This document shows, piece after piece, positions 6,078 through 58,305 of a stretch of DNA of 64,000 nt. A model generated the notes under the pieces. That model was not told the origin of the DNA, made no database searches, and worked only from the letters and a program-made list of their open reading frames with translations. Within the stretch, counting starts at the first letter, position 1; every line of letters starts with the position of its first letter. This stretch comes from a virus, in IMG/VR virus record IMGVR_UViG_3300010367_000378, positions 23,901 through 87,900 of that record; one strand, written 5' to 3'. Made by a program: the position numbers and the translations under genes.

Positions 6078-6514
6078 TCTCGGACGTGGACCTGATCTGG
6101 GCGGCCGGCCTCTTCGAGGGTGAGGGCACGATCACGCTCGCCGTCCGAAATCAGGACGAGACCTACAGACTGTTGGTCATCGTGGGAAACACCGACCGCC
6201 AGATCCTGGACTTTTTTCAGGAGCGATGGCCAGGGTGGCTCCAGCCCGCCTACGGCAAGCGCCCCAGACGGCAGCCGGCGTGGACTTGGACGCTCGCGGC
6301 GGGCAAGGCCGAGGCCTTCCTCCGAGCGATTGAACCCTACCTGCGCACCGACCGGGTGAAGGACAAGCTGCGTCTCGCCCTGGAGTTCCGTTCTTTTCAG
6401 ACCACCAAGAAGCGGGAGTGGGGCCGGCCTGAGTATCGAGCCAGGCAGCGGAAGCTTTACGCCGCCATGCGGGTGCTCAACCGGCGAGGCATCCCCGAGG
6501 AGGCAGCGGCATGA
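6074..6514 (+). CDS. LAGLIDADG-like homing endonuclease
   Basis: 146 residues from GTG at 6074. Residues 7-18 read LIWAAGLFEGEG, the dodecapeptide of LAGLIDADG nucleases with the acidic residue (Glu15/Glu17) in the metal-binding position; strands (TITLAVRN) and helices follow as in the single-motif, dimeric class. Such proteins cut double-stranded DNA to spread themselves. Unusually, it is not in an intron or a gap: it overlaps both neighbours by 4 bp, so it is translated as part of the operon. Confidence 0.7.
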   Translation: MISDVDLIWAAGLFEGEGTITLAVRNQDETYRLLVIVGNTDRQILDFFQERWPGWLQPAYGKRPRRQPAWTWTLAAGKAEAFLRAIEPYLRTDRVKDKLRLALEFRSFQTTKKREWGRPEYRARQRKLYAAMRVLNRRGIPEEAAA

Positions 6515-8280
6515 AGAGCCGGGATCTGAAGGTTTCTGAAGACCTCTCATTGCCTATGGAGGCGGTGACGGAGACGTTCGCGCTCCTCGCTGTCAAGGGG
6601 GCAGGCAAGACCAATGCTGGACGCGTCATGGCGGAGGAGATGTTCGCCGCCGGCGCGCCATTCGTCGTCATCGACCCGGTGGGCTCCTGGTGGGGCCTCC
6701 GCGCCGGCCGCGAGCCCGGTGACCCGGGGCTCCCCATCCCGATCTTTGGCGGCCGTCACGGAGATGTTCCCCTGGAGCGCGGCGGAGGGACCGTCATCGC
6801 GGACCTGGTCGTAGACCAGAGGGTCTCCTGCGTCATCGACCTCTCCGACTTCGAGAACGAGGCGCCCAAGAAACAGTTCCTCCTCGATTTTTCCCGGCGC
6901 CTCTACCACCGCAACACCGAGCCGCTTCACCTCTTCCTCGAAGAGGCCGACGACTACGTGCCCCAGACGATGCGGGGGGCGACTTCCGAGAAGGGGGTCG
7001 AGCCTCAGCTCCTGCGCGCGATGGAGAACATCGTTCGCCGCGGCCGGGCCCGCGGGTTGGGAATCACGATGATCACCCAGCGCAGCGCCTCGATCAACAA
7101 GAGCGTCCTGACCCAGGCGGGAACCCTGATCGCCATGCAGGCGACGTCTCCCCAGGACCGGAAGGCGATTGAAGACTGGGTCAAGTATCACGGCGAGAAG
7201 GAAGAGATTCTGGCCTCCCTCTCCTCGCTCAACAAGGGAGAGGCATGGATCTGGTCCCCCCTCTTCCTCGGTAAGACGGTCCGCATCAGGTTCCGCCTCT
7301 CGCATACCTTCGATTCGGGCCAGACCCCTCGCCTGCGCAAGAGCGCCGCGACTCAGCGGGCGGCGACCCTGGCGGACGTCAACCTGGAGCAGATCCGCTC
7401 CAAGATGGCAGAGACGATCGAGAAGGCGAAGGCCGATGACCCCAAGGAGCTCCGGGCCCGCATCAGGGAGCTGGAGGCGCAGGCCTCCCGGGACCGGCGC
7501 CGAATCGAGACGCTGGAGCGGCAGCTCGAGGCGGTGCCGAAGAAGCAGCCCGGCCGGCCGGCGGGGCCGCTCCACCCCGGCACCATCCACGACCTGGAGA
7601 TGCGAGGCCGAGCGATGCAGAACCTCGGCCGGGAGCTCGAGGAGAGGGGCAAGGATCTCGAAGGCCTGGCTGGCCGCCTCCGGAAGGAAACCGCGTCGGC
7701 TGAAGGTACGCCCCCTGCTGCTGCGCCCGCCTCAGCGCCCGCTGCGCCATCTCCACGGCCGGCTCCTCCTCCACCTCGATCCTCACCCCCGCTGCTCCCC
7801 CGCGGGGACGGCGCCAAGCTCGGCAAGTGCGAGATCGCGGTCCTCGGCGTGCTCGCCCAGAATCCGGACGGCGCCGACAAGGGGAAGCTCTCGCTCCTCG
7901 CCGGCTACCGCTACAGCGGGGGGTTCCGCAACTCCCTGAGCTCCCTCCGCTCGAGCGGCCTGATCGTCGGCGGCAACGAGGAGGTGATGAAGATCACCGA
8001 CGCGGGGCTGGCCGCGGCCGACGGGCTCTACGACGAGCTGCCGCGTGGCGAGGAGCTGGTGGCCTACTGGCTCAACCACCCCTCCCTGGGCAAAGCGGAG
8101 CGCGCCGTTCTGCGGACGCTGATCGACCGCGGCCCGATGAACGGCCAGGACCTCGCGGCTGCCACCGGCTATGGGTACAGCGGGGGGTTCCGCAACGCGC
8201 TGTCTGCGCTTCGGACCGCCGGGCTGCTGCTGGGGAAGAACACGGAGACGATGTCCGTCAACCCGGACCTTCTAGCCTAG
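6511..8280 (+). CDS. HerA/FtsK-like ATPase with two winged-helix repeats
   Basis: 589 residues. Walker A is GAGKTNAG (residues 30-37) and Walker B is LHLFLEEAD (about 139-147), followed by GRARGLGITMITQR (sensor region), the arrangement of HerA/DUF87-type DNA translocases. A coiled-coil arm (about 300-400) and a Pro/Ala/Ser linker lead to two copies of a winged-helix-like unit of about 75 residues. The repeats contain YRYSGGFRNSLSSLRSSGL and YGYSGGFRNALSALRTAGL. Members usually work with the NurA nuclease, or act alone as plasmid or phage motors; a partner nuclease is not obvious here. The duplicated DNA-binding tail is unusual. Confidence 0.7.
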   Translation: MKSRDLKVSEDLSLPMEAVTETFALLAVKGAGKTNAGRVMAEEMFAAGAPFVVIDPVGSWWGLRAGREPGDPGLPIPIFGGRHGDVPLERGGGTVIADLVVDQRVSCVIDLSDFENEAPKKQFLLDFSRRLYHRNTEPLHLFLEEADDYVPQTMRGATSEKGVEPQLLRAMENIVRRGRARGLGITMITQRSASINKSVLTQAGTLIAMQATSPQDRKAIEDWVKYHGEKEEILASLSSLNKGEAWIWSPLFLGKTVRIRFRLSHTFDSGQTPRLRKSAATQRAATLADVNLEQIRSKMAETIEKAKADDPKELRARIRELEAQASRDRRRIETLERQLEAVPKKQPGRPAGPLHPGTIHDLEMRGRAMQNLGRELEERGKDLEGLAGRLRKETASAEGTPPAAAPASAPAAPSPRPAPPPPRSSPPLLPRGDGAKLGKCEIAVLGVLAQNPDGADKGKLSLLAGYRYSGGFRNSLSSLRSSGLIVGGNEEVMKITDAGLAAADGLYDELPRGEELVAYWLNHPSLGKAERAVLRTLIDRGPMNGQDLAAATGYGYSGGFRNALSALRTAGLLLGKNTETMSVNPDLLA

Positions 8281-13832: not shown

Positions 13833-14647
13833 TCTCCTGCCCGGAGCAGGCTGCAGCGTGCATCGCCGAGGGCGCCCTCTTCGTCGCCAACCATTCCGGT
13901 GGGAAGGACTCGCAGGCGATGCTGATCCGCCTCCTCGAGGTGGTGCCGCGCGAGCAGCTCCTCGTCGTCCACGCCTCGCTCGGTGAGATGGAGTGGCCCG
14001 GCGCGCTCGAGCACGCGCAGCAGCAGGCCACAGCGGCCGGGCTCCCCTTCCTCGTGGCCCGGGCCGGGCTCTCTCTCTTGGAGCTCGTAGAGCGCCGCTA
14101 CAGCCGGCGGCCGGAGGTGCCAGCGTGGCCCTCCGCCTCGAACCGCCAATGCACCTCGGACCTCAAGCGGGACCCCATCATGCGCGAGGTCCGCCGCTAC
14201 GCGAGGCAGGCCGGAGCGGAGACGGTGGTCACCTGCATGGGGATGCGCGCGGCCGAGAGCCCGCGGCGGTCCCGGATGGCCACCTGGTCGGTGAACAGCC
14301 GCGGCACGACGTCGCGACATCGCTGGTTCGACTGGCTGCCGATCCACGACCTCTCCACCGAGGAGGTCTTCGCCACGATTCGCGGCGCCGGCCAGGAGCC
14401 GCACCCCGCCTACGCTTCGGGGAACGAACGCCTCTCCTGCATCTTCTGCATCCTCGGCTCTCGCCAGGACGCCAGGAACGGCGCCATCCACCACCCCGAC
14501 CTCTACGCCCGCTACGTCGCGCTCGAGGAGCGCACCGGCTACACCGCCCACCAGTCCCGCGAGTCGCTGGTCCAGTTGACCGGGCTCACGGTAGAGGACG
14601 CATACCGATCTCACGAATCTCTTTCTGAGGAGGATTCCCGTGCCTGA
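13829..14647 (+). CDS. PAPS-reductase-like PP-loop protein
   Basis: 272 residues. The PP-loop SGGKDS (residues 23-28) follows a hydrophobic strand, as in adenine nucleotide alpha hydrolases; ASNRQCTSDLKRDP and ERLSCIFCILGS supply the downstream region and cysteines seen in phage PAPS reductase/DndC-like proteins. The family activates substrates with ATP to form adenylates. In phages a link to DNA or RNA thio-modification, or to sulphur metabolism, has been suggested but no Dnd-type partners are present here. It overlaps the next gene by 8 bp. Confidence 0.8.
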   Translation: MISCPEQAAACIAEGALFVANHSGGKDSQAMLIRLLEVVPREQLLVVHASLGEMEWPGALEHAQQQATAAGLPFLVARAGLSLLELVERRYSRRPEVPAWPSASNRQCTSDLKRDPIMREVRRYARQAGAETVVTCMGMRAAESPRRSRMATWSVNSRGTTSRHRWFDWLPIHDLSTEEVFATIRGAGQEPHPAYASGNERLSCIFCILGSRQDARNGAIHHPDLYARYVALEERTGYTAHQSRESLVQLTGLTVEDAYRSHESLSEEDSRA

Positions 14648-16673
14648 CTTCAAGCTCTTCAAGGCGGCCATCGCCAGCCAGTTCGCGCAGATGCAGCAGC
14701 AGCCCCTGTTCCAGGTGGAGATCGATGGCGATGCCCTCTGGACGACGTATCTCGCGAGCTTCCCGCCTGGCACCAACCCCATCTTCCGGGAGCGCACGGA
14801 ATACGACTGTAGCTGCTGCCGCCACTTCATCCGGACCGCCGGCGCCGTCGTCTCGATAGTGGACGGCAAGCTCGTCTCGCTGTGGGACATCGAGGTCGAG
14901 GAGCCCGCCTACGCCGCCGTCGCGGCGGCCCTCTCGACCCTCGTGAAGAGCAAGCCGCTGGCGGGCCCGTTCGTCCACTACGAGGCGACGGCAGGGATCG
15001 ACAAGAACGTCGAGCTGGTCGGCTCCGACAACCCCGAGCCCACCAGGACCTGGAACCACTTCTTCGTCAACATCGACCGGCGCCACGTGCGAGCCAAGGA
15101 CGGGATCGCCGCCTGGCTCGGCGAGCAGCGCGCGCGGCACGACGTTCTCCTCCGGAGCCTGCGCGAGATCGGCGCGGCCGAGGTTGAGACTGTCCTCGAC
15201 CTGATTGCCCAGGGTTCCCTCTACCGGGGCGAGGAACACCGGGTGGCCATCACGCAGTTCCGCGACCTCAAGGCCCGCTTCGATGCCCTCGCTGGCAACG
15301 AGACCGCCGAGGACGTCTTCGCCTGGACGGCTGATGTCTCGGGTGCCGTTTCCCGCTTCCGCAACACGGCGATCGGGTCACTGCTCGTAGACCTGAGCGA
15401 GGGCAAGGAGTTGGAGGCGGCCGTCGCTTCCTTCGAGGCAAAGGTCGCGCCCATGAACTACAAGCGCCCCACCGCGCTCGTCACCCCGGCCATGGTAGCC
15501 GCGGCCAAGGAGACCCTCGCGGGGCTCGGCCTGCTCTCAGCCCTCGACCGGCGTTTCGCGACCGCCCGCGATGTTGGCGTGGATGCCGTCCTCTTCGCCG
15601 ATCGCTCGGCCCGGCCGGTTGCCAGCGACGTATTCGACGACGTGGCGCAGGAGGCCGGCGCACGCGCCGGGAAGAAGACCCTGGACAAGGTCGAGGAAGT
15701 CCCGGTGGACCGCTTCCTGGCCGAGATCGTCCCGCGGGCGGAGTCGATCGAGGTGTTGGTCGAGAACCGCCACCTGGGGAATTTCGTCAGCCTGATCGCT
15801 CCCTGCGATCCGACCGCCGGCCGGATCTTCAAGTGGGGCAACCTCTTCTCGTGGAGCTACGCCGGCGAACTGGCCGACGCGATCCGCGAGCGGGTCAAGC
15901 GGGCGGGCGGGAACGTGACCGGCGACCTCTGCTGCAGGTTGGCGTGGCGGAACACGGACGATCTCGACTTCCACATGCAGGAGCCCGGGCGGTACGAGAT
16001 CTCCTTCCAGACCCGGGGCTCGACCTCGCCCTCCGGGGGCCGCCTCGACGTGGACATGAATGTGAGCGGAGAGACCCGCGAGCCGGTCGAGAACATCTGT
16101 TACGCCAGCCGGAGCCGCATGCGGGAGGGGGACTACAGGCTCTTCGTCCACCAGTATCGCTACCGCGAGGCGGTCGACCCCGGCTTCGAGGTCGAGATTG
16201 ACTACCTGGGCGAGGTGCGCCGCTACGCCTATCCCCAGGTCGTGAAGCACGGGCATGAGGTAGAGGTCGCTCGGTTCCGCTACACGCATGCCGGCGGCGT
16301 CGAGATCATCAGTTCGCTCCCCGAGAGCCAGGCTGGCCGCCTCGCCTGGGGGCTCCAGACCCAGAGCTTCCACCGGGTCCGCCTCCTCATGCACTCCCCC
16401 AACTTCTGGGAAGGCCAGGCGGTCGGCAACCGGCACCTGTTCTTCATGCTCGAAGGCTGCCGCAACGACGGGAGCGCCCGCCCCTTCTTCAACGAATTCC
16501 TCCGCCCCGACTTGGAGCCCCACCGCAAGGTCTTTGAGGTCGTCGGCGCCCGCATGAAGCCGGCCGACTCGGACGAGCAGTTGAGCGGGCTCGGCTTCTC
16601 ATCGACCCGCCGCGATTCGGTCACCTGCCGAGTCCGGGGGAGCTTCACCCGCACGATCAAGGTCACGTTCTAG
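14640..16673 (+). CDS. Large conserved phage protein, function unknown
   Basis: 677 residues from GTG at 14640. The N-terminal part has CSCCRHFI, a tight cysteine knot. The C-terminal 270 residues include LAWRNTDDLDFHMQEP, SGGRLDVDMN, FFMLEGCRNDGSARPFFNEFL and LSGLGFSSTRRD, a strongly conserved order I recognise from hypothetical proteins of many tailed phages. It is usually found with a small partner like the next gene. The DVDM and DD pairs could bind metal. Not a known virion protein. Confidence 0.7.
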   Translation: MPDFKLFKAAIASQFAQMQQQPLFQVEIDGDALWTTYLASFPPGTNPIFRERTEYDCSCCRHFIRTAGAVVSIVDGKLVSLWDIEVEEPAYAAVAAALSTLVKSKPLAGPFVHYEATAGIDKNVELVGSDNPEPTRTWNHFFVNIDRRHVRAKDGIAAWLGEQRARHDVLLRSLREIGAAEVETVLDLIAQGSLYRGEEHRVAITQFRDLKARFDALAGNETAEDVFAWTADVSGAVSRFRNTAIGSLLVDLSEGKELEAAVASFEAKVAPMNYKRPTALVTPAMVAAAKETLAGLGLLSALDRRFATARDVGVDAVLFADRSARPVASDVFDDVAQEAGARAGKKTLDKVEEVPVDRFLAEIVPRAESIEVLVENRHLGNFVSLIAPCDPTAGRIFKWGNLFSWSYAGELADAIRERVKRAGGNVTGDLCCRLAWRNTDDLDFHMQEPGRYEISFQTRGSTSPSGGRLDVDMNVSGETREPVENICYASRSRMREGDYRLFVHQYRYREAVDPGFEVEIDYLGEVRRYAYPQVVKHGHEVEVARFRYTHAGGVEIISSLPESQAGRLAWGLQTQSFHRVRLLMHSPNFWEGQAVGNRHLFFMLEGCRNDGSARPFFNEFLRPDLEPHRKVFEVVGARMKPADSDEQLSGLGFSSTRRDSVTCRVRGSFTRTIKVTF

Positions 16674-49655: not shown

Positions 49656-50492
49656 TCAGCCATAGTCCAGGCTTGGCGGGTGCTGGACCTTCATGATCTG
49701 GAACAACGCCTCGAGCGGGATCGGTCCGACCGCGGCCTGCGCCCGGTGAAGCGGCCGGACACGTCCATCGCCCTGTGTCCTCCAGACCTTCTTCGCCGTC
49801 GGAGGAATGCTTCCTGTCTTCTTCGCCTCGAGCCAGCTCTGATGCCGGCCGAAAGAAACCGATTCGATGAGCCCGCGGTCGGCAATGGCCTGCGCCCGCA
49901 ACGCCTTCCCGGCAGCCGCTCGTTCAGCGACGCCGGCTGATACCTGCTCTGGAGTCAAAGAGCTCGCAGAGGCTCCAGCCCGCCAAGCTTCGACGCGGGC
50001 CGCCTGCTTCGGGGTGAGCCCGATGACAGAACGGATTTCTTCCCGCAGTCGGCGCAGCGTCTTGAGGCTTTGATTTCCGACATACTCCTGGGCCGCTCGG
50101 CCGATCGACTGGCGGATGCCCGCCCTGGTCACGGCGTCTATCCCCTCGGCCAGGTCAACCGCCAATTGCCGGCCGAACTCCGAGGCGAGCTCCCCGACCC
50201 TGGCGCTGAGGGCTGGTGCTGCTGCAGAAGGAAGAAGGGCGATTCCCTGTTCGAGTCCGGTCTCGACGAGGCTGTGTTCCACCGCCGAGAGCGCCGCTTC
50301 GAGACGGGAGCGGGCTGCGATCCATTGCGGGCTGTTCGTGAGGGGGTTGGGGGAACCCGTCTTAATCCCTGCGTCAATCCGGGCCGCTTTGACGTCCGCC
50401 TCGAGGCTGGAGGTGTAGTCCTCGATCGCCGCTGCCAGGGTGGTCAGCTCATCCTCCAGGCCGGCGTAGGGGTCCTCCTCGACGGCGGACAT
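49656..50492 (-). CDS. Head morphogenesis protein (Mu gpF/SPP1 gp7-like), early TGA
   Basis: 278 residues. The N-terminal helical region is followed by the morphogenesis module: VSFGRHQSWLEAKKTGSIPPTAKKVWRTQGDGRVRPLHRAQAAVGPIP, the usual RT..D.RVRP.H order. Family members end with a conserved CRC-type cysteine element; here HPPSLDYG is followed by TGA, then CGC TGC TGG (RCW) and 6 more sense codons to a second TGA at 49629. A single C-to-A change would turn TGC into this TGA. It lies just after the portal gene, as usual. Confidence 0.65.
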   Translation of the reverse strand: MSAVEEDPYAGLEDELTTLAAAIEDYTSSLEADVKAARIDAGIKTGSPNPLTNSPQWIAARSRLEAALSAVEHSLVETGLEQGIALLPSAAAPALSARVGELASEFGRQLAVDLAEGIDAVTRAGIRQSIGRAAQEYVGNQSLKTLRRLREEIRSVIGLTPKQAARVEAWRAGASASSLTPEQVSAGVAERAAAGKALRAQAIADRGLIESVSFGRHQSWLEAKKTGSIPPTAKKVWRTQGDGRVRPLHRAQAAVGPIPLEALFQIMKVQHPPSLDYG

Positions 50493-50497
50493 TCAAC

Positions 50498-52177
50498 TCA
50501 CGTCCCGATGAAGGATTGAGTCCTGGCCAGCGCCGAGTTGTCCGCCGCGGCAGCAGGATCAGCACCCCCCGGGCCACCCAAGGCCGCCCTGTTGGCGGCG
50601 TCCCACGCCAGCTCCGAGGCAACGTCGAACGTCTGCTGGTCCACGTCGCCGGCGCGCTTCGCCTCGGCCCAGTAGTTCTTCGGGCTCATCTTGTCGGCCA
50701 CGAAGAGGGCATGGAGCCTCTCCATCCCGGTGTTGGGCAGGCCGAAATCGTGAGGGATCGAGACGGCGCCCCGCTTGGGGAGCCCTCCCAAGAGCGCCAT
50801 GAGGTCGAGAATCCTCTTCCAGGCCTGCTCTTGAAAGATCACCCACATCTCCAGCGCGGAGGAGGCCTGCACCCCCTGGAGGGTGATCTCGCGGGCGGTG
50901 ACGGGCCCCGTGGGGCGTTCGACCTGGATCTGGTGGTGAGCCTTCTCGATGAGGGCGATCTTCCACTCGACGACTTCCATCACGGACTTCAGCGCCGTCC
51001 CCTGCATCTCGGCGATCGTCAGCGTTGCAGCCGCCTCCGTGGAGACGAAGAACCGAGTTCCCCTGGTATCCGGCAGCAGCGGCTTCTTCGTAACAGGATC
51101 GAGCCCGACACCGCTCTGGTGGACGAACGCGATCGTCGCTTCCCGGGCCAGGTTGAGCAACTCGCTGTTGTGGTTCCAGATCGTGTTCTGGGTCCACGCC
51201 GTGTCGAGGAAGGGACAGTGGCCGCGGTAGGGTCCCTTGCGGTCGGTGTAGTGGGGAACCAGCGGGATATCGAGGAGCTCATCCAAGGGGTTGTCGGGGA
51301 GGATGAAGCCGCGCTTGGTCGTGTCCTCAACCCACTCCCCCTTCGAATTCTTGACGTAGAGTTGGGTCCTGACCTTCCGTTCGTCGCTCCCCTTCTCGGC
51401 ATCTGGATTACCGGCCGTCACCACCTTGCAGGCGGGCGTCGCGTCGTCCACCCAGGCGTCGGGGTCCGCAACGTCGACGGTCGTGATCGGCTGGTCGAGA
51501 ACGATCTGCTTCAGGCGCGGGACTCCGTTGCGGGTCTCGAGCGTGATGCGCCGAACATGACAGCGCCGGAATTTCGTGACCCGCGGTTGCGCCCCTGCTG
51601 CTCGCCGGCTTGCGGGATCGGGAAACTGCCGGGGGTCGTTGTCGACGAAAGAGAACACGACCCCCTCAAAGAGCGCGTCGGCGAAGGTCTCGGCGGCGTA
51701 CTCGTCCAGGTTCTGCCCCTCGGCCGTCAGGGTATCGACCCACCCAGGCGTCCGATGCACCAGCTCCCCAGAGGGTCCCATCTCGGACTTGCCGGCAAGC
51801 TCCTCGTCGTAGCCGGCGATGGTGATCCGGGAGCGGAAGGGGAGGCGAGCCGTCGATCGGATCGACTCGGCCCAGGGGTTCGGCATGTCCGAGCGGTTGA
51901 CCCGGCGGAAGTAGAGGGTGTCGGTGAGCCCTGATACGGCAGAGGCGGAGCTCACGGCGCCAGCCGTCGCCGATGGGCCTCCGCCGACCGTGATCACTTC
52001 CATCTCGCCCGGGTTCGGCCACATGAAGCGGAAGCCGCGGGCGTGCTCCCGCATAGCGGTTACGCCCTCCCTCAACGCCACGGCGAGGAGGTGCGCCTCT
52101 TCGTCCTTCCGAATCCAATCGCTCTGTTCATCGACACGGCGACGGACCGGACCGTCGGCAGCCTTTGGAGTTTTCAC
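50498..52177 (-). CDS. Portal protein (DUF4055-like)
   Basis: 559 residues. The C-terminal half (PYRGHCPFLDTAWTQNTIWNHNSELLNLAREATIAFVH... GTALKSVMEVVEWKIALIEKAHHQIQ) fits DUF4055, a portal-type family, and LEMWVIFQEQAWKRILDLMALLGG is the long helix near the C terminus. It forms the dodecameric channel for DNA packaging. It directly follows the terminase gene and precedes the morphogenesis gene. Confidence 0.8.
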   Translation of the reverse strand: MKTPKAADGPVRRRVDEQSDWIRKDEEAHLLAVALREGVTAMREHARGFRFMWPNPGEMEVITVGGGPSATAGAVSSASAVSGLTDTLYFRRVNRSDMPNPWAESIRSTARLPFRSRITIAGYDEELAGKSEMGPSGELVHRTPGWVDTLTAEGQNLDEYAAETFADALFEGVVFSFVDNDPRQFPDPASRRAAGAQPRVTKFRRCHVRRITLETRNGVPRLKQIVLDQPITTVDVADPDAWVDDATPACKVVTAGNPDAEKGSDERKVRTQLYVKNSKGEWVEDTTKRGFILPDNPLDELLDIPLVPHYTDRKGPYRGHCPFLDTAWTQNTIWNHNSELLNLAREATIAFVHQSGVGLDPVTKKPLLPDTRGTRFFVSTEAAATLTIAEMQGTALKSVMEVVEWKIALIEKAHHQIQVERPTGPVTAREITLQGVQASSALEMWVIFQEQAWKRILDLMALLGGLPKRGAVSIPHDFGLPNTGMERLHALFVADKMSPKNYWAEAKRAGDVDQQTFDVASELAWDAANRAALGGPGGADPAAAADNSALARTQSFIGT

Positions 52178-52192
52178 GATGGGTGAATGGTA

Positions 52193-54442
52193 TCACCACC
52201 CCGGAGGACGCGGCATGGCGGCCGACTGCGCAGGGGGAGGGGGCTCCTCATAGACCTCCTCGTAGGCGTCGACCGTCGCGTCGACGTCGTCGTCGATGCG
52301 CCCCTCGTCCCCGGTGAACGACTGCAGGATCTGGAGCCAGAACGTCCACCAGTCGCCAGCGAAGAGGGCTCCCTTCGCCGCGATCTCCCTGAGCTCCGGG
52401 TGGGCCGAGACCTTCTCGCTCCAGTTTTCGACCAGGTGGGAGATGGCCGGTTCCCAGGAGGCGCCGACGAACTGGATGCCCCCGGGGATGTCCGGCGCCG
52501 GCGGTTGGGCCCTGCTCCGGAAGGCGTCGGCGCGCGCGGCCTTCGCCGACAGGGTCGCCGTCGCCGCCCGGCGTGGGCGCTTGCAGATGATCTCCGGGAC
52601 CGGCATCCCTACCCAGCCCGCCACCTCCCGGAGATAGCGGACGATCTCATCCGCCCACCCCTCGCCGCCGGTGGCGGGGTCGATCGGGATGCGGATCTTG
52701 ACCCCCGGGCCATCGAGCAGCATCGCCGCGGCGATGAGTTGCTTCACGCCACGCGGAGCGAACTGGCCCCGGACGACGTGGCGGAGAATGATGTCGCCGC
52801 CAGCCTTCGTTCGACCCATCTTCGAGCCGACCGTGAAGTCGCCGCCGCCCTCGGTCGAGGCGAGGTCCCAGGCCCGGACGCAGATCTCGTAGATGTCCTC
52901 GTTCGCTACGAGCCCGGCGATCGCGGGGTCCCGGTCGAGGCGGACGAACCACTCCGACTCGAAGTTGCCGCCGCGCTCGACGCCCTTCGGATTCTGCTGG
53001 CACTCGCAGGCCGCGATGATCGGCCCCCGGATCTTGAAGACGACCCGCCATGCGTCGGCGCTCCGGCGCTCTGGCCAGAGCGGGGTCCCCGGCTCGGTCC
53101 GGAAGTCCGGCAGGATCTCGAAGAGGGGATACATCTCCCGGTAGCCGTCGAGCACGGCCGGGTCATAGACCGCGGAGAGGGCGAGGATGCCCCACTTCTC
53201 ATCGGCCGTGGGGTTTTCGGCGAGGGCGGCGTGGCTGAGGCCCATGGCGTAGCCGATGAGGTCGCCTTTGTCCCAGCGCGTGACCGTCGCGCAGAGCTTC
53301 TGGCGGCGCATCTCGGCGGCGAACATCGACTCGCGGGCGCGGAGGACGCTGCCGTAGCGGGTCCGTTTCTTCTCCTGGGCACTCTTGTTGACGGCGTCCG
53401 CCCAGTCCTGATCCGGATCGTCGGGGAAGACCCAGGAGGCCGGGTTTCCTGTCTGGCCAGCAGCCATGCCGGCCGACCAGCAGCCGCCTCCTGCCTTCGT
53501 CTTCCACTCCTGGACCGCCTGGCGGCCGGGCTCGAACTCGCCACCGGACTTCTTGAAGTTGGCCCGGGCGTCCGCGCTCCTCTTGTTCGCGATCTTGGTG
53601 TTGTAGGAGACGATCGAGCACCAGTCGCTGGGGAACCGGTGGAGGATGTAGGGGACGGCATGACGCGGGCCGGCCTCGGTCTTGCCGTGCTGGGACGGGA
53701 TAAAGATCGCGAGGTGATCGAAGGCGCCGTCGATCCAGCGGTCGACGGCGCCGACGATCGAGGGGGTGTGGGGGGCCCAGATGAACTTCCCGCCGAAGTG
53801 GCGCTCCAGCCACTCCCGGTAGGATGGGAAGGCCGGGCGCTTGATCAGCTCGGGGTCGAGATCTTTCGGGTCGAGAAGGAAGACGCGGCGGCCAGAGCTG
53901 CCGTTGACGCTCCAGTGTCGAGACACCCAGCCGGGCTCCAAGGCCGATCGAGCAGCAGCGACGACCCTCCGGAGTGGGTGAGGGCTTGCGAGAGTCGCGT
54001 CGCGGAGGAGAGTGAAGACGTGCTCCGAGACGTCCTCGGCCTGGTCGACGAGCAGCACGTCGGGGCGGCGGTCGAGCGCCTTGAGAGCTTCCGACTCCCG
54101 GTTGCAGCCGATCCAACGGATTGAGGAACCATTCCTGAACCGGATCTCGCCTTGAAGAGCCTCGGCGAAGCCGTGGGACTGCATCTCCCGGACCATCGAG
54201 AGAAGGCCGTCCTGGCCGCCGACGTGGTCGCGGTAGACGTCCGTCTCATCTTTCTGGAGGATCAGGACCGAGGTCCCGTCTCGGGATGTACAGGCCCGGA
54301 GCGCCATGGCGCGCAGCAGGTACGACGCTCCGGCCGGGACACCGCGGGCGGCGCTCGACAGGAGGAGCTCCGGAACACCATCGAGGCGGAGTGCCTCGAA
54401 CTGCCCGCGGAACAGGCGGAAGATCGATCTTGGACGGGCCAC
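52193..54442 (-). CDS. terL: Terminase large subunit with extra N-terminal ATPase-like domain
   Basis: 749 residues. The canonical motor starts at residue 221: IFIPSQHGKTE (Walker A, about 247-256), WVFPDDP (Walker B region, about 337-343), ATVTRWDKGDLIGY (coupling motif), and nuclease acids in RAWDLAS (D526), GGGDFTVG (D535) and IPIDPATGG (D588). Residues 1-210 look like a second TerL ATPase: QFEALRLDGVPELLLSSAARGV (degenerate P-loop), VLILQKDETDVYR, IRFRNGSSIRWIG, PDVLLVDQAEDVSEHVFTLL (Walker B-like). The usual HGKTE-type terminases lack such a region. Packages DNA with the portal. Confidence 0.85.
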   Translation of the reverse strand: MARPRSIFRLFRGQFEALRLDGVPELLLSSAARGVPAGASYLLRAMALRACTSRDGTSVLILQKDETDVYRDHVGGQDGLLSMVREMQSHGFAEALQGEIRFRNGSSIRWIGCNRESEALKALDRRPDVLLVDQAEDVSEHVFTLLRDATLASPHPLRRVVAAARSALEPGWVSRHWSVNGSSGRRVFLLDPKDLDPELIKRPAFPSYREWLERHFGGKFIWAPHTPSIVGAVDRWIDGAFDHLAIFIPSQHGKTEAGPRHAVPYILHRFPSDWCSIVSYNTKIANKRSADARANFKKSGGEFEPGRQAVQEWKTKAGGGCWSAGMAAGQTGNPASWVFPDDPDQDWADAVNKSAQEKKRTRYGSVLRARESMFAAEMRRQKLCATVTRWDKGDLIGYAMGLSHAALAENPTADEKWGILALSAVYDPAVLDGYREMYPLFEILPDFRTEPGTPLWPERRSADAWRVVFKIRGPIIAACECQQNPKGVERGGNFESEWFVRLDRDPAIAGLVANEDIYEICVRAWDLASTEGGGDFTVGSKMGRTKAGGDIILRHVVRGQFAPRGVKQLIAAAMLLDGPGVKIRIPIDPATGGEGWADEIVRYLREVAGWVGMPVPEIICKRPRRAATATLSAKAARADAFRSRAQPPAPDIPGGIQFVGASWEPAISHLVENWSEKVSAHPELREIAAKGALFAGDWWTFWLQILQSFTGDEGRIDDDVDATVDAYEEVYEEPPPPAQSAAMPRPPGW

Positions 54443-55488: not shown

Positions 55489-55689
55489 CTAGGACGTTGA
55501 GATCCTCTCTCGGGCGCGCCTCGCCGTTACGCTGCTGGCGCCCTGTTGTGGCGCAGCGGCCCCGGCCAGAGGCGGGATCAGCGACCAGCCGGCACGCTTG
55601 AGCACGTCGACGATCGAGGAGGAGGCCGAGACCCGCCGTTGTAGGCGACCATCCGGCGAATAGAGGACGATCTTCTTTTTATTCAGCAT
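55489..55689 (-). CDS. Small conserved phage protein
   Basis: 66 residues from ATG at 55689 with GGAGAGGA upstream. KKIVLYSPDGRLQRRV then SIVDVLKRAGWSLIPP is the order of a short, widespread phage protein (xLYxPDGxx...VxxxLxxGW), function unknown. The C-terminal 30 residues are low-complexity. It overlaps the upstream gene end. Confidence 0.55.
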   Translation of the reverse strand: MLNKKKIVLYSPDGRLQRRVSASSSIVDVLKRAGWSLIPPLAGAAAPQQGASSVTARRARERISTS

Positions 55690-56770
55690 TTTCCTCTCCA
55701 TTCTCCCGCGGCGTGAATTCCGCCTCGAGGAACACCACCTCCATGCTTCGCGCCTTCCCTTCCTCCACAACGGCGCCGGGCAGGCGCAGATACTCCCGGA
55801 TCTGGTTGGCCTTCTGCTGGACCCGCTGCGCCCGGATGCGGTCGAGCGCCGCCACCTCGCTGGTGACGGGGAGGTGGTCGGCTCGATCGAGGAGGGCGAT
55901 CTCGCGCCCCAGCAGGCCCAGGACCGCCTCCTGCGCCTGAGCGGGGTCCTGGAGCTTCGTGAGGAGCTGAGCGAAGGTCTCGTCCCCCTCGGCCGCCGGC
56001 AGCATGTCGCGGCCGAACTTCACCATCCGCTGTTCCGCCCGCAGCTTCAGCCGGAGCTTGGCGTTCTCCTGCACCCGGCCCCAGAGCTCGGCGCGTCCGG
56101 CGGCTTCGTCCTGGCGGTAGGAGAGGATCTGGGTGGGCTGCGGAGGGCCACCGTTCGCCGCGCTGCCGCGGGTCACCGACTTGCGCACCACCCGGGAGCG
56201 GGCCAGGTCCTCGAGGATCATCTCGTCCATCTGGTAGGTCCAGGAGATCTCCTCCTGAATCGAGGCGAGCTGCTCGTCGAGGAAGGCGGCGCCGTTGGCG
56301 AGGGACCCCTGGCGCAGATCGTTCCAGACGACCCGCATGTCCCCCCGCACCGTCTGGACGCTGAGGCGGGCCGCTTCCGCCGCGGCGTCGGCCTCGGAAG
56401 CCGAGACCCCGCGCGCCAGCGCCTGCTCACGGGCCCGGGCGGAACGGCGTTCGTTGAGAAGCTTCCAGCCCTCGACCGCCGTGAATTTCGGTCCAGCCTG
56501 CCGGGCGAGATTCAGCAGGAAGGCGCGGTCATCCTCCCGCTCCAGGTCGTTCCGTTCTATGCGTGCCATCTGGTGCTCATCAGGATAGCCGGGAAGCTCT
56601 ACGGCTGCCAGTTCCGGGGGGGGGGGCAAAGTATCCCACTCAGGGAACTCCAGCCCTTCCATTCCGGCCGCCAGCTCGTCGGCCAGTTTCTCAAAGGCCT
56701 GGGGGTCGAACCCTTCCAGGTCGTGGTGCTCGTCGATGCGCGGGACCTCCAGTAGATGAGGTAGCCGCAC
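55679..56770 (-). CDS. Hypothetical packaging-region protein with C11 tract
   Basis: 363 residues from GTG at 56770 (a TAA lies in frame just upstream, so this is the first start). Mostly helical: DDRAFLLNLARQAGPKF, AREQALARGVSASEADAAAEAARL, AFLDEQLASIQEEISWTYQMDEMILEDLARSR, KLRLKLRAEQRMVKF. It could be a small terminase or scaffold-like DNA-binding protein by location, but no motif supports this. Near residue 50 an 11-C run encodes Pro4; a slip there would truncate it. Confidence 0.5.
   Translation of the reverse strand: MRLPHLLEVPRIDEHHDLEGFDPQAFEKLADELAAGMEGLEFPEWDTLPPPPELAAVELPGYPDEHQMARIERNDLEREDDRAFLLNLARQAGPKFTAVEGWKLLNERRSARAREQALARGVSASEADAAAEAARLSVQTVRGDMRVVWNDLRQGSLANGAAFLDEQLASIQEEISWTYQMDEMILEDLARSRVVRKSVTRGSAANGGPPQPTQILSYRQDEAAGRAELWGRVQENAKLRLKLRAEQRMVKFGRDMLPAAEGDETFAQLLTKLQDPAQAQEAVLGLLGREIALLDRADHLPVTSEVAALDRIRAQRVQQKANQIREYLRLPGAVVEEGKARSMEVVFLEAEFTPRENGEENAE
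56616..56626 (-). repeat. G11/C11 homopolymer in coding sequence
   Basis: Eleven G on the plus strand with flanks GTTCC and CAAA, almost the same as those of the 19106-19116 tract. It lies near the 5' end of the 363-residue gene, where a length change would act as an on/off switch. Confidence 0.9.
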
Positions 56771-56833: not shown

Positions 56834-57010
56834 TCAGCGTTGCAGCAGGCAGGCATTGAGCGTCGAGGCGATCGAGCGCGCCACCTCCTCCCGATGGTAG
56901 CGGTTGGGCGCGGCCGACGTCGGTCGGCCCTCCCGGGCCTCGAATCGCCGGCCGGTCCACACCACCTTCCAGGTCTCTCCGGGCGGGGGGAGGAGGAGCT
57001 GCTCGCGCAT
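56834..57010 (-). CDS. Small conserved phage protein
   Basis: 58 residues from ATG at 57010, overlapping the methyltransferase stop in an ATGA junction. PGETWKVVWTGRRFEAREGRP then YHREEVARSIASTLNACLL is a plausible small alpha/beta domain. It is too short to be found easily by frame length alone but is supported by the coupling. Confidence 0.5.
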   Translation of the reverse strand: MREQLLLPPPGETWKVVWTGRRFEAREGRPTSAAPNRYHREEVARSIASTLNACLLQR

Positions 57011-58305
57011 CAGGCGCCGAACGCCTCGAAGAGAAGCCCCTGGCCAGCGTCATCGGTCACCAGGGCAGGGCGGCGGCGCCGGAAGAGGACCGGGGCCTCC
57101 AGGGTGTGCTCGATCTCCCCCCGGTCGACGAGCCGCCACAGGGCGGCGTTGACGGGGGTGGTGAACAAGACGTCGGCCGTGAGGTCGAAGATCTCGACCC
57201 CCAGCCGGTTGAAGGTGCGCGGCTCGCCGTCGGCGAGGCCTTCGAGGAGCAGCTCCTCCAGCTCGGCCGCCGGCCTCTTGGCGAGGGTCCGGTGCGGAGC
57301 TCGATCCTGGTGGCCACCCTTCGGCCGTGGGGTCCGCTGGGGATCGCCTGGCGCGCGCACCAGGTGGGTGTAGGCGGCCAGCCCTTCGCGATCGGCGACG
57401 GCGCCAAAGACCCAGGTCAGGATGCCGGTCGCCGCCGGCTGGTTCGCCGAGATCCCGCTCGTGGTGCTGGCGGCCTCCGCCGCTTCCTCCTGGAGCCGCC
57501 CCTGCAGGTGCTCGATGACCTCGTCCCAGTCCACCCCGTAGCAGGAGCCCCCGGTCTTCCCGATCACCGGCGCCACCACCTCGCGCATCTCCTCCGGATC
57601 GGTGATCTCGCTCGCCTGCTCCAGCAGCTCTTGGCGGTGCTCGATCGTGAAGACGGCGTTCGCGGTGCTGTGGTTCGAGAATCCGCAGACCTCGGGCTCG
57701 GACCCGCGCAGCTCGCGGTCCAGGGTGGCGAAGGTGACCTCGATGCCCGTACCGTATTCGCGGAAGGCATTCTTCTCGATCATCTCCCAGGTGGCGGAGA
57801 TGCAGCCCGGGAGCTCCAGCGCGCAGCGGGTCAGCAGGTCACCCAGCCCGTTGGGGCCGAGGGTGACGATCCGGCCGCCGGGTGCCAGCAGGCTCCAGGC
57901 GTGCTCGATGTGCCGCACGTAGGTGTTCCGGGAGAAGGGCGGGTTCATGACGATCCGGTCGTAGAGAACAGCCGGCCGATAGGAGAGGAAGTCTTCCCCC
58001 ACCAGGTGGGCCTCGCCGGCGGCGAGCAGCCGCTCGCGGGCCGCGGCGTCCGTCTCGCAGACGTCGATCTGCTCGGCGCCGGCCAAGCGGAGGAGGTGCA
58101 CGAGGCGTCCGTCGCCGGCGCTGGGCTCCAGGTAGCGCATGGAGGGGAGGGCGGGCCCTGCCTCGCGGACCATGGCCTCGCCCACCTCCATCGGGGTGTA
58201 GAAGGCCTGGCGCGCCTTCCGCTGGGCCTTCGCGTCCAGGACCTCGTTGACCGGCTGGAACGTCACGGTCGCCCCGGGGGACACGTGGGGCGCTTCGTGC
58301 TCCAC
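57010..58305 (-). CDS. Adenine-specific DNA methyltransferase
   Basis: 431 residues. A class I methyltransferase: SAM motif YLEPSAGDGRL (58-68) and catalytic NPPF (121-124) before SRNTYVRHIEHAWSLLAPGG, the N6-adenine type. The phage form lacks an obvious target recognition domain. The C-terminal third (LEELLLEGLADGEPRTFNRLGVEIF) is less conserved. It probably methylates phage DNA to evade restriction. Start GTG at 58305, inside the end of the preceding gene. Confidence 0.8.
   Translation of the reverse strand: MEHEAPHVSPGATVTFQPVNEVLDAKAQRKARQAFYTPMEVGEAMVREAGPALPSMRYLEPSAGDGRLVHLLRLAGAEQIDVCETDAAARERLLAAGEAHLVGEDFLSYRPAVLYDRIVMNPPFSRNTYVRHIEHAWSLLAPGGRIVTLGPNGLGDLLTRCALELPGCISATWEMIEKNAFREYGTGIEVTFATLDRELRGSEPEVCGFSNHSTANAVFTIEHRQELLEQASEITDPEEMREVVAPVIGKTGGSCYGVDWDEVIEHLQGRLQEEAAEAASTTSGISANQPAATGILTWVFGAVADREGLAAYTHLVRAPGDPQRTPRPKGGHQDRAPHRTLAKRPAAELEELLLEGLADGEPRTFNRLGVEIFDLTADVLFTTPVNAALWRLVDRGEIEHTLEAPVLFRRRRPALVTDDAGQGLLFEAFGA

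Follow-up and report, generated by a model that had tools for sequence, protein, structure and literature searches.

Organization of the terminase locus

The window, that is, the whole 64,000-nucleotide stretch of DNA analyzed here, corresponds to bases 23901-87900 of an 87.9-kb virus record. Its minus strand carries, at 52193-54442, an ORF with a GTG start coding for a 749-aa large terminase (TerL) of two-part layout, in which a domain predicted to be a pseudo-ATPase precedes a complete TerL. PHROGs profile searches match this protein to both phrog_38 (E=3e-38) and phrog_979 (E=7e-23), and the motifs that an earlier note had quoted for it, reading the letters alone, are all present in the ORF. 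More than 1200 phage records show some match to the protein, mostly to its C-terminal TerL part, and in none of them does a single place cover 80% of the fused protein. No second TerL was found in the 87.9-kb record; a candidate suggested by a phrog_2666 "terminase" match at 6511-8280 was rejected as a HerA-like ATPase, and the PHROGs label "terminase large subunit" for phrog_2666 is probably a misnomer. The gene in question, on the plus strand, encodes a 589-aa HerA/FtsK-like ATPase (Pfam HerA_C and DUF87; P-loop KGAGKT) with a long coiled or proline-rich middle and a repeated C-terminal segment.

The fused TerL gene sits in a packaging gene block and adjoins the portal protein gene (phrog_145, DUF4055-like; 50498-52177, minus strand), which lies directly downstream; a MuF-like head morphogenesis protein (phrog_3517, E=3e-13; 49656-50492, minus strand) and, further downstream of both, a major head protein (phrog_247) are encoded in the same neighborhood. 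Upstream is a gene for a 363-aa orphan protein (55679-56770, minus strand), which has no relatives in the searched libraries or phage collection. It occupies the same place in a second virus with the same terminase fusion (L091, IMGVR_UViG_3300035241_000033, discussed below), where its 34% identical counterpart (L091:3260-4171) has 304 aa, and the small gene between the orphan and TerL is also weakly similar in the two viruses. The portal of L091 (L091:8275-9582; phrog_12/phrog_2662) belongs to another family than that of the window, and the two do not match. The portals being of different families, TerL and portal have been exchanged independently; since the orphan is shared while the portals differ, the unit that stays together comprises the orphan, the small gene and the fused TerL rather than TerL and portal. 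No recognizable TerS was seen among the genes examined, and on positional grounds only the orphan is a candidate packaging partner, be it a TerS or a DNA-recognition partner.

Upstream of the packaging block lies a gene for a methyltransferase-like protein (57010-58305, minus strand), several of whose best PHROGs matches fall inside families of very large phage proteins (profiles of up to 3925 positions). Elsewhere in the window, a 677-aa protein (14640-16673, plus strand) shows a full-length match to phrog_1735, a family of unknown function (E=2e-257), which is unusually strong for an otherwise divergent virus.

The C-terminal part is a complete TerL

Profile matches and alignment identify residues 206-749 (52196-53827, minus strand) as a complete, active-type TerL of the PsiM2/phrog_38 type, which aligns end to end with five ordinary TerLs. 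The Walker A of its ATPase (IPSQHGKT, residues 248-255; 53678-53701, minus strand) is intact, being MPPQHGKS in L091 and having an HGK that is invariant across the five other TerLs; similarly, both aspartates of the Walker B region (FPDDP, residues 339-343; 53414-53428, minus strand) are invariant in the alignment. The TRW segment and the nuclease acids are likewise intact. The RNase H-fold nuclease domain, at residues ~515-732 (52247-52900, minus strand), is delineated by the alignment, by relatives from the family of the C-terminal part, and by a match to Pfam Terminase_6C that lies just over the gathering score (E=1e-4; 22.8 bits against 22.6 bits). The earlier note had taken D526, D535 and D588 as its acids: the alignment upholds D526 and D588 (D/E in relatives) and places the third better at the D717/D718 cluster, although D535 is conserved too.

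This order of Walker A, Walker B, TRW and RNase H elements is shared with canonical PsiM2/phrog_38 TerLs, such as those of Bradyrhizobium phage BDU-MI-1 and the Synechococcus phages S-CBS2 and S-CRES3. However, the sampled members of that family are proteins of ~450-580 aa with one ATPase, whereas the fused TerL has 200 additional N-terminal residues as well as insertions around residues 610-700.

Identity and fold of the N-terminal domain

The additional TerL-type domain, the putative pseudo-ATPase, comprises residues 1-205 (53828-54442, minus strand), as defined by a sequence profile, alignments, AlphaFold and Foldseek. A tblastn search with the first 212 residues recovered the ordinary TerLs of Rosemountvirus KE25 and Escherichia phage fHy-Eco03 (E about 3e-5). 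Against a profile of 42 active TerL ATPases the domain scores 68.7 bits, the best of 996 shuffles reaching 6.9, and its counterpart in L091 scores 101 bits. The AlphaFold2 model displays an ASCE fold (pLDDT 83.9, pTM 0.84), and its 26 best PDB matches in Foldseek are all packaging ATPases (Sf6 gp2, D6E, T4 gp17, P74-26 and phi29), with KaiC, a tandem ATPase, appearing low in the list. The sequence and fold results thus agree, though they are not fully independent of each other because the AlphaFold alignment itself consists of TerLs. The earlier note had reckoned with the chance that residues 1-215 might fold as something other than an ASCE ATPase; AlphaFold gave them a TerL-type ASCE ATPase fold. 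We are hence nearly certain that residues 1 to ~205 represent a second TerL ATPase domain captured from another TerL family. In the full-length 749-aa model, which is of the monomer, the placement of the domains is not confident (pTM 0.59), and their arrangement was not relied upon because the input alignment had the second half of the N-family rows in the wrong place.

The source of the domain is the phrog_979/phrog_2 family (Pfam Terminase_6N), whose active members, including those of Rosemountvirus KE25 and fHy-Eco03, have a GGAAGGGKS P-loop. The domain has in common with this family the strand-helix order and the Q, NGS, Asp133 and LR positions. In contrast, the family has an intact P-loop, a catalytic Glu and its own C-terminal part, all of which are lost from the fused protein, where a different TerL stands behind the domain. 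A four-row alignment used to scan viral contigs recovered 147 relatives of the domain, of which the best 80 were kept: all of these 80 except L091 are ordinary TerLs, mostly of about 480-550 aa, and every P-loop of theirs that a contig includes is intact, most of them reading GGAAGGGKS, while a few of the genes are cut at a contig edge. One TerL of this family (L152:1146-2771) has GGAAGGMKS where its relatives have GGAAGGGKS. Others, from L124 (4899-7481), L135, L137-L141 (861-aa ORFs) and L125, combine a GGAAFGGKS P-loop with unusually long frames of 861-867 aa.

Loss of nucleotide-handling residues

The degenerate Walker A of the N-terminal domain spans residues 29-40 (SSAARGVPAGAS; 54323-54358, minus strand) and aligns with the GGAAGGGKS of the active relatives. 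The earlier note's assertion that the P-loop has been lost is therefore upheld, with the site itself corrected to this segment. The position of Lys39 is K in 100% of the 42 active TerLs, A in the window protein and C in L091. The degenerate Walker B (VLLVDQ, residues 129-134; 54041-54058, minus strand) corresponds to VLLxDE in relatives and to VDN in L091: Asp133 is retained in both fusions, and the catalytic Glu134 has become Q in the window protein and N in L091. Further, both proteins have QK in place of the FRR arginines and have lost most of the GAEIH segment. Of 86 columns with at least 90% conservation among the active relatives, 27 are retained and 33 are lost in both fusions; those retained include Q14, a conserved Gln close to the N terminus, as well as R44, NGS, the Walker B Asp and other core residues. 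Confidence in the AlphaFold model is among its lowest in the P-loop region.

With a functional P-loop Lys and a catalytic Glu absent from both fusions, the sequence predicts that the N-terminal domain neither binds nor hydrolyzes ATP. The pseudo-ATPase reading of the earlier note is supported by the fact that both proteins have lost the Walker A Lys and the catalytic Glu as well as the FRR arginines. Weak nucleotide binding is possible, given the retained Asp133 and Q14. The C-terminal nuclease proper to the family of the N-terminal domain is also absent, the nuclease of the fused protein being that of the C-terminal part's family.

A second virus with the same fusion

The alignment-based scan of viral contigs yielded one further case of this layout, the 728-aa fused TerL of L091 (L091:4998-7184), which provides the same fusion in another phage that the earlier note had suggested looking for. 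The window protein and L091 share 41% identity in the dead domain (over 214 residues) and 37% in the C-terminal part (over 541); by region, the identities are 43% for the dead domain, 47% for the live ATPase, and 36% for the remaining, nuclease region. These regional identities being similar, the constraint on the dead domain is about equal to that on the working parts, and by sequence it is a maintained domain conserved in two distant viruses. Trees of the N- and C-terminal parts both recover the two proteins as sisters with full support, with branches in the N-domain tree so long that absolute lengths are unreliable. The simplest history is that the two parts were joined once, in a common ancestor.

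The searches for further members used patterns derived from the pair (viral contigs and GTDB genomes) and two DNA patterns, and extended to phages and plasmids; while such pattern-based scans would miss distant relatives with other conserved stretches, they gave no third fusion beyond L091 in IMG/VR, INPHARED, PLSDB and GTDB. A BFVD search with the full model returned no near full-length similarity (TM <=0.43 among the 50 matches listed). Nor did we find a described precedent for a pseudo-ATPase or tandem-ATPase terminase in the open-licence literature searched, which concurs with the earlier note's statement that it knew of no described TerL of such layout, without disproving a precedent.

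Origin of the two parts

Profile comparison of the N- and C-terminal parts, based on shallow alignments, detected no kinship between them. Since the N-terminal domain belongs to another TerL family and has no detectable kinship with the C-terminal part, an internal duplication of one TerL was rejected, and the earlier suggestion of a captured second terminase is sustained. The phrog_979 match to the nuclease had raised the converse alternative, namely the insertion of a second ATPase into a TerL of the N-terminal domain's family; however, the relatives of the nuclease all come from the family of the C-terminal part, with no matches among ordinary members of the other family, which rules this out. 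We propose that the ATPase domain of a phrog_979/phrog_2-family TerL was joined ahead of a complete PsiM2/phrog_38-family TerL, and that the captured TerL would have lost its nuclease first and its nucleotide-handling residues later.

Proposed role in the packaging motor

TerL has been described as having a single ATPase domain at its N terminus and a single nuclease domain at its C terminus, for example in jumbo phages (PMC7824862). Established models have it sitting on the portal as a pentamer, and in several systems neighboring subunits coordinate their ATP hydrolysis (PMC5727402, PMC9410871); its C-terminal arm has been proposed to contact the portal (PMC5727402). Against this backdrop, the sequence features make it fairly probable that a captured, catalytically dead TerL ATPase now serves as a non-catalytic module of the packaging motor in a tandem TerL. 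Under this proposal, ATP would be hydrolyzed by the C-terminal ATPase only, and five copies of the dead domain (or as many as the motor contains) would add a further, inert layer to the motor, stacked against the working ATPase ring. As the dead domain precedes the live ATPase and the proposed contact with the portal is made by the C-terminal arm, this layer would most likely lie on the DNA-entry side, a placement inferred from motor models of other phages, whose orientation is debated. There it might guide or clamp DNA, or dock a DNA-recognition partner, perhaps the upstream orphan. This functional picture of an entry-side collar, clamp or docking platform, drawn by analogy, is tentative, and somewhat more speculative still is the notion of a motor with a stacked pair of ASCE rings that differ in ancestry, in which the one that is permanently dead has been selected as an integral part of DNA translocation, be it as clamp, collar or processivity factor. 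The capture, inactivation and retention of a second family's ATPase shows that the packaging motor can accommodate, and apparently gains from, what would be an additional inert ATPase layer, and the fused TerL could be a natural tool for studying the position of the ATPase ring, DNA contacts on the entry side and the docking of a DNA-recognition partner.

Instead of being part of a ring, the N-terminal domain might mainly act as an adaptor for DNA recognition or TerS docking, whereby a retained ancestral TerS-contact surface would offer the fused motor a second route of recruitment to DNA. The loss of catalysis with retention of the core fold, the lack of a recognizable TerS among the genes examined and the orphan common to both fusion viruses all fit this alternative, but the shared orphan has no detectable family, and we regard the adaptor role as rather unlikely. 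Distinctly less likely is the production of two proteins from the gene, the full-length fusion as a minor regulatory or cap subunit along with a TerL of normal size initiated at an internal GTG at residue 173 (53924-53926, minus strand). In both genes the GTG falls at the same point of the alignment and is preceded by a purine-rich stretch, and the resulting 577-aa product would have its Walker A about 78 residues in, similar to ordinary relatives; however, in a genome of 68% GC, Val is commonly encoded by GTG and G-rich stretches occur often, and with two sequences only the coincidence is not beyond chance.

That the domain is merely the decaying, functionless remnant of a recent, tolerated fusion would accord with its lost catalytic residues and long tree branches, but such decay would have destroyed the domain; given an intact frame and about 43% identity in the dead domain, though the live parts are only 37% identical, we hold this to be very improbable. 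Marginally more improbable is a role as decoy or shield against TerL-sensing immune proteins of the Avs type: TerL folds are immune targets, and an Avs3-bound terminase (PDB 8dgc) is among the Foldseek matches, yet the recognition of TerL by Avs counts only as a lead, no finding here links the virus or its host to Avs, and the sensor could just as well be set off by a fused TerL-like fold. Finally, the joining of two TerL genes by an assembly or sequencing artefact, about which the earlier note had cautioned, has a negligible probability: the reading frame is continuous with coding-like third-position GC in both halves of the gene, and an independent contig, L091, carries the same layout at about 40% identity, which excludes an assembly error. 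Since the fusion is also kept in one distant virus, it is genuine, not an error, and its design is probably useful; we return to the inert motor module as the preferred reading.

Comparison with other motors and long terminases

Packaging ATPases of the phi29 type retain a vestigial nuclease (PMC9410871). They provide a precedent for a dead domain being kept in a packaging motor, with the difference that the phi29-type motor combines a dead nuclease with one ATPase, whereas the fused TerL adds a dead ATPase to a complete TerL. Two stacked ATPase layers with one of them inert are known from NSF, with its tandem P-loop rings, one of which is degenerate. This is an analogy in the manner of working between different protein families, and in the fused TerL the second ring is only proposed.

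In their unusual length, the intein-containing TerLs (annotated in the Caulobacter phages CcrRogue and RBC63) resemble the fused TerL; however, their extra sequence lies inside TerL, whereas here it is an N-terminal ATPase domain. An intein-split TerL was accordingly rejected as an explanation, as no interruption of intein size breaks the alignment of the live TerL and what has been added to it is a TerL ATPase, not an intein. Among the BFVD matches listed, actinophage TerLs of 768-919 aa may carry inteins, and in Athena, a cluster-B relative, TerL is interrupted in a way that fits an insert, for instance an intein.
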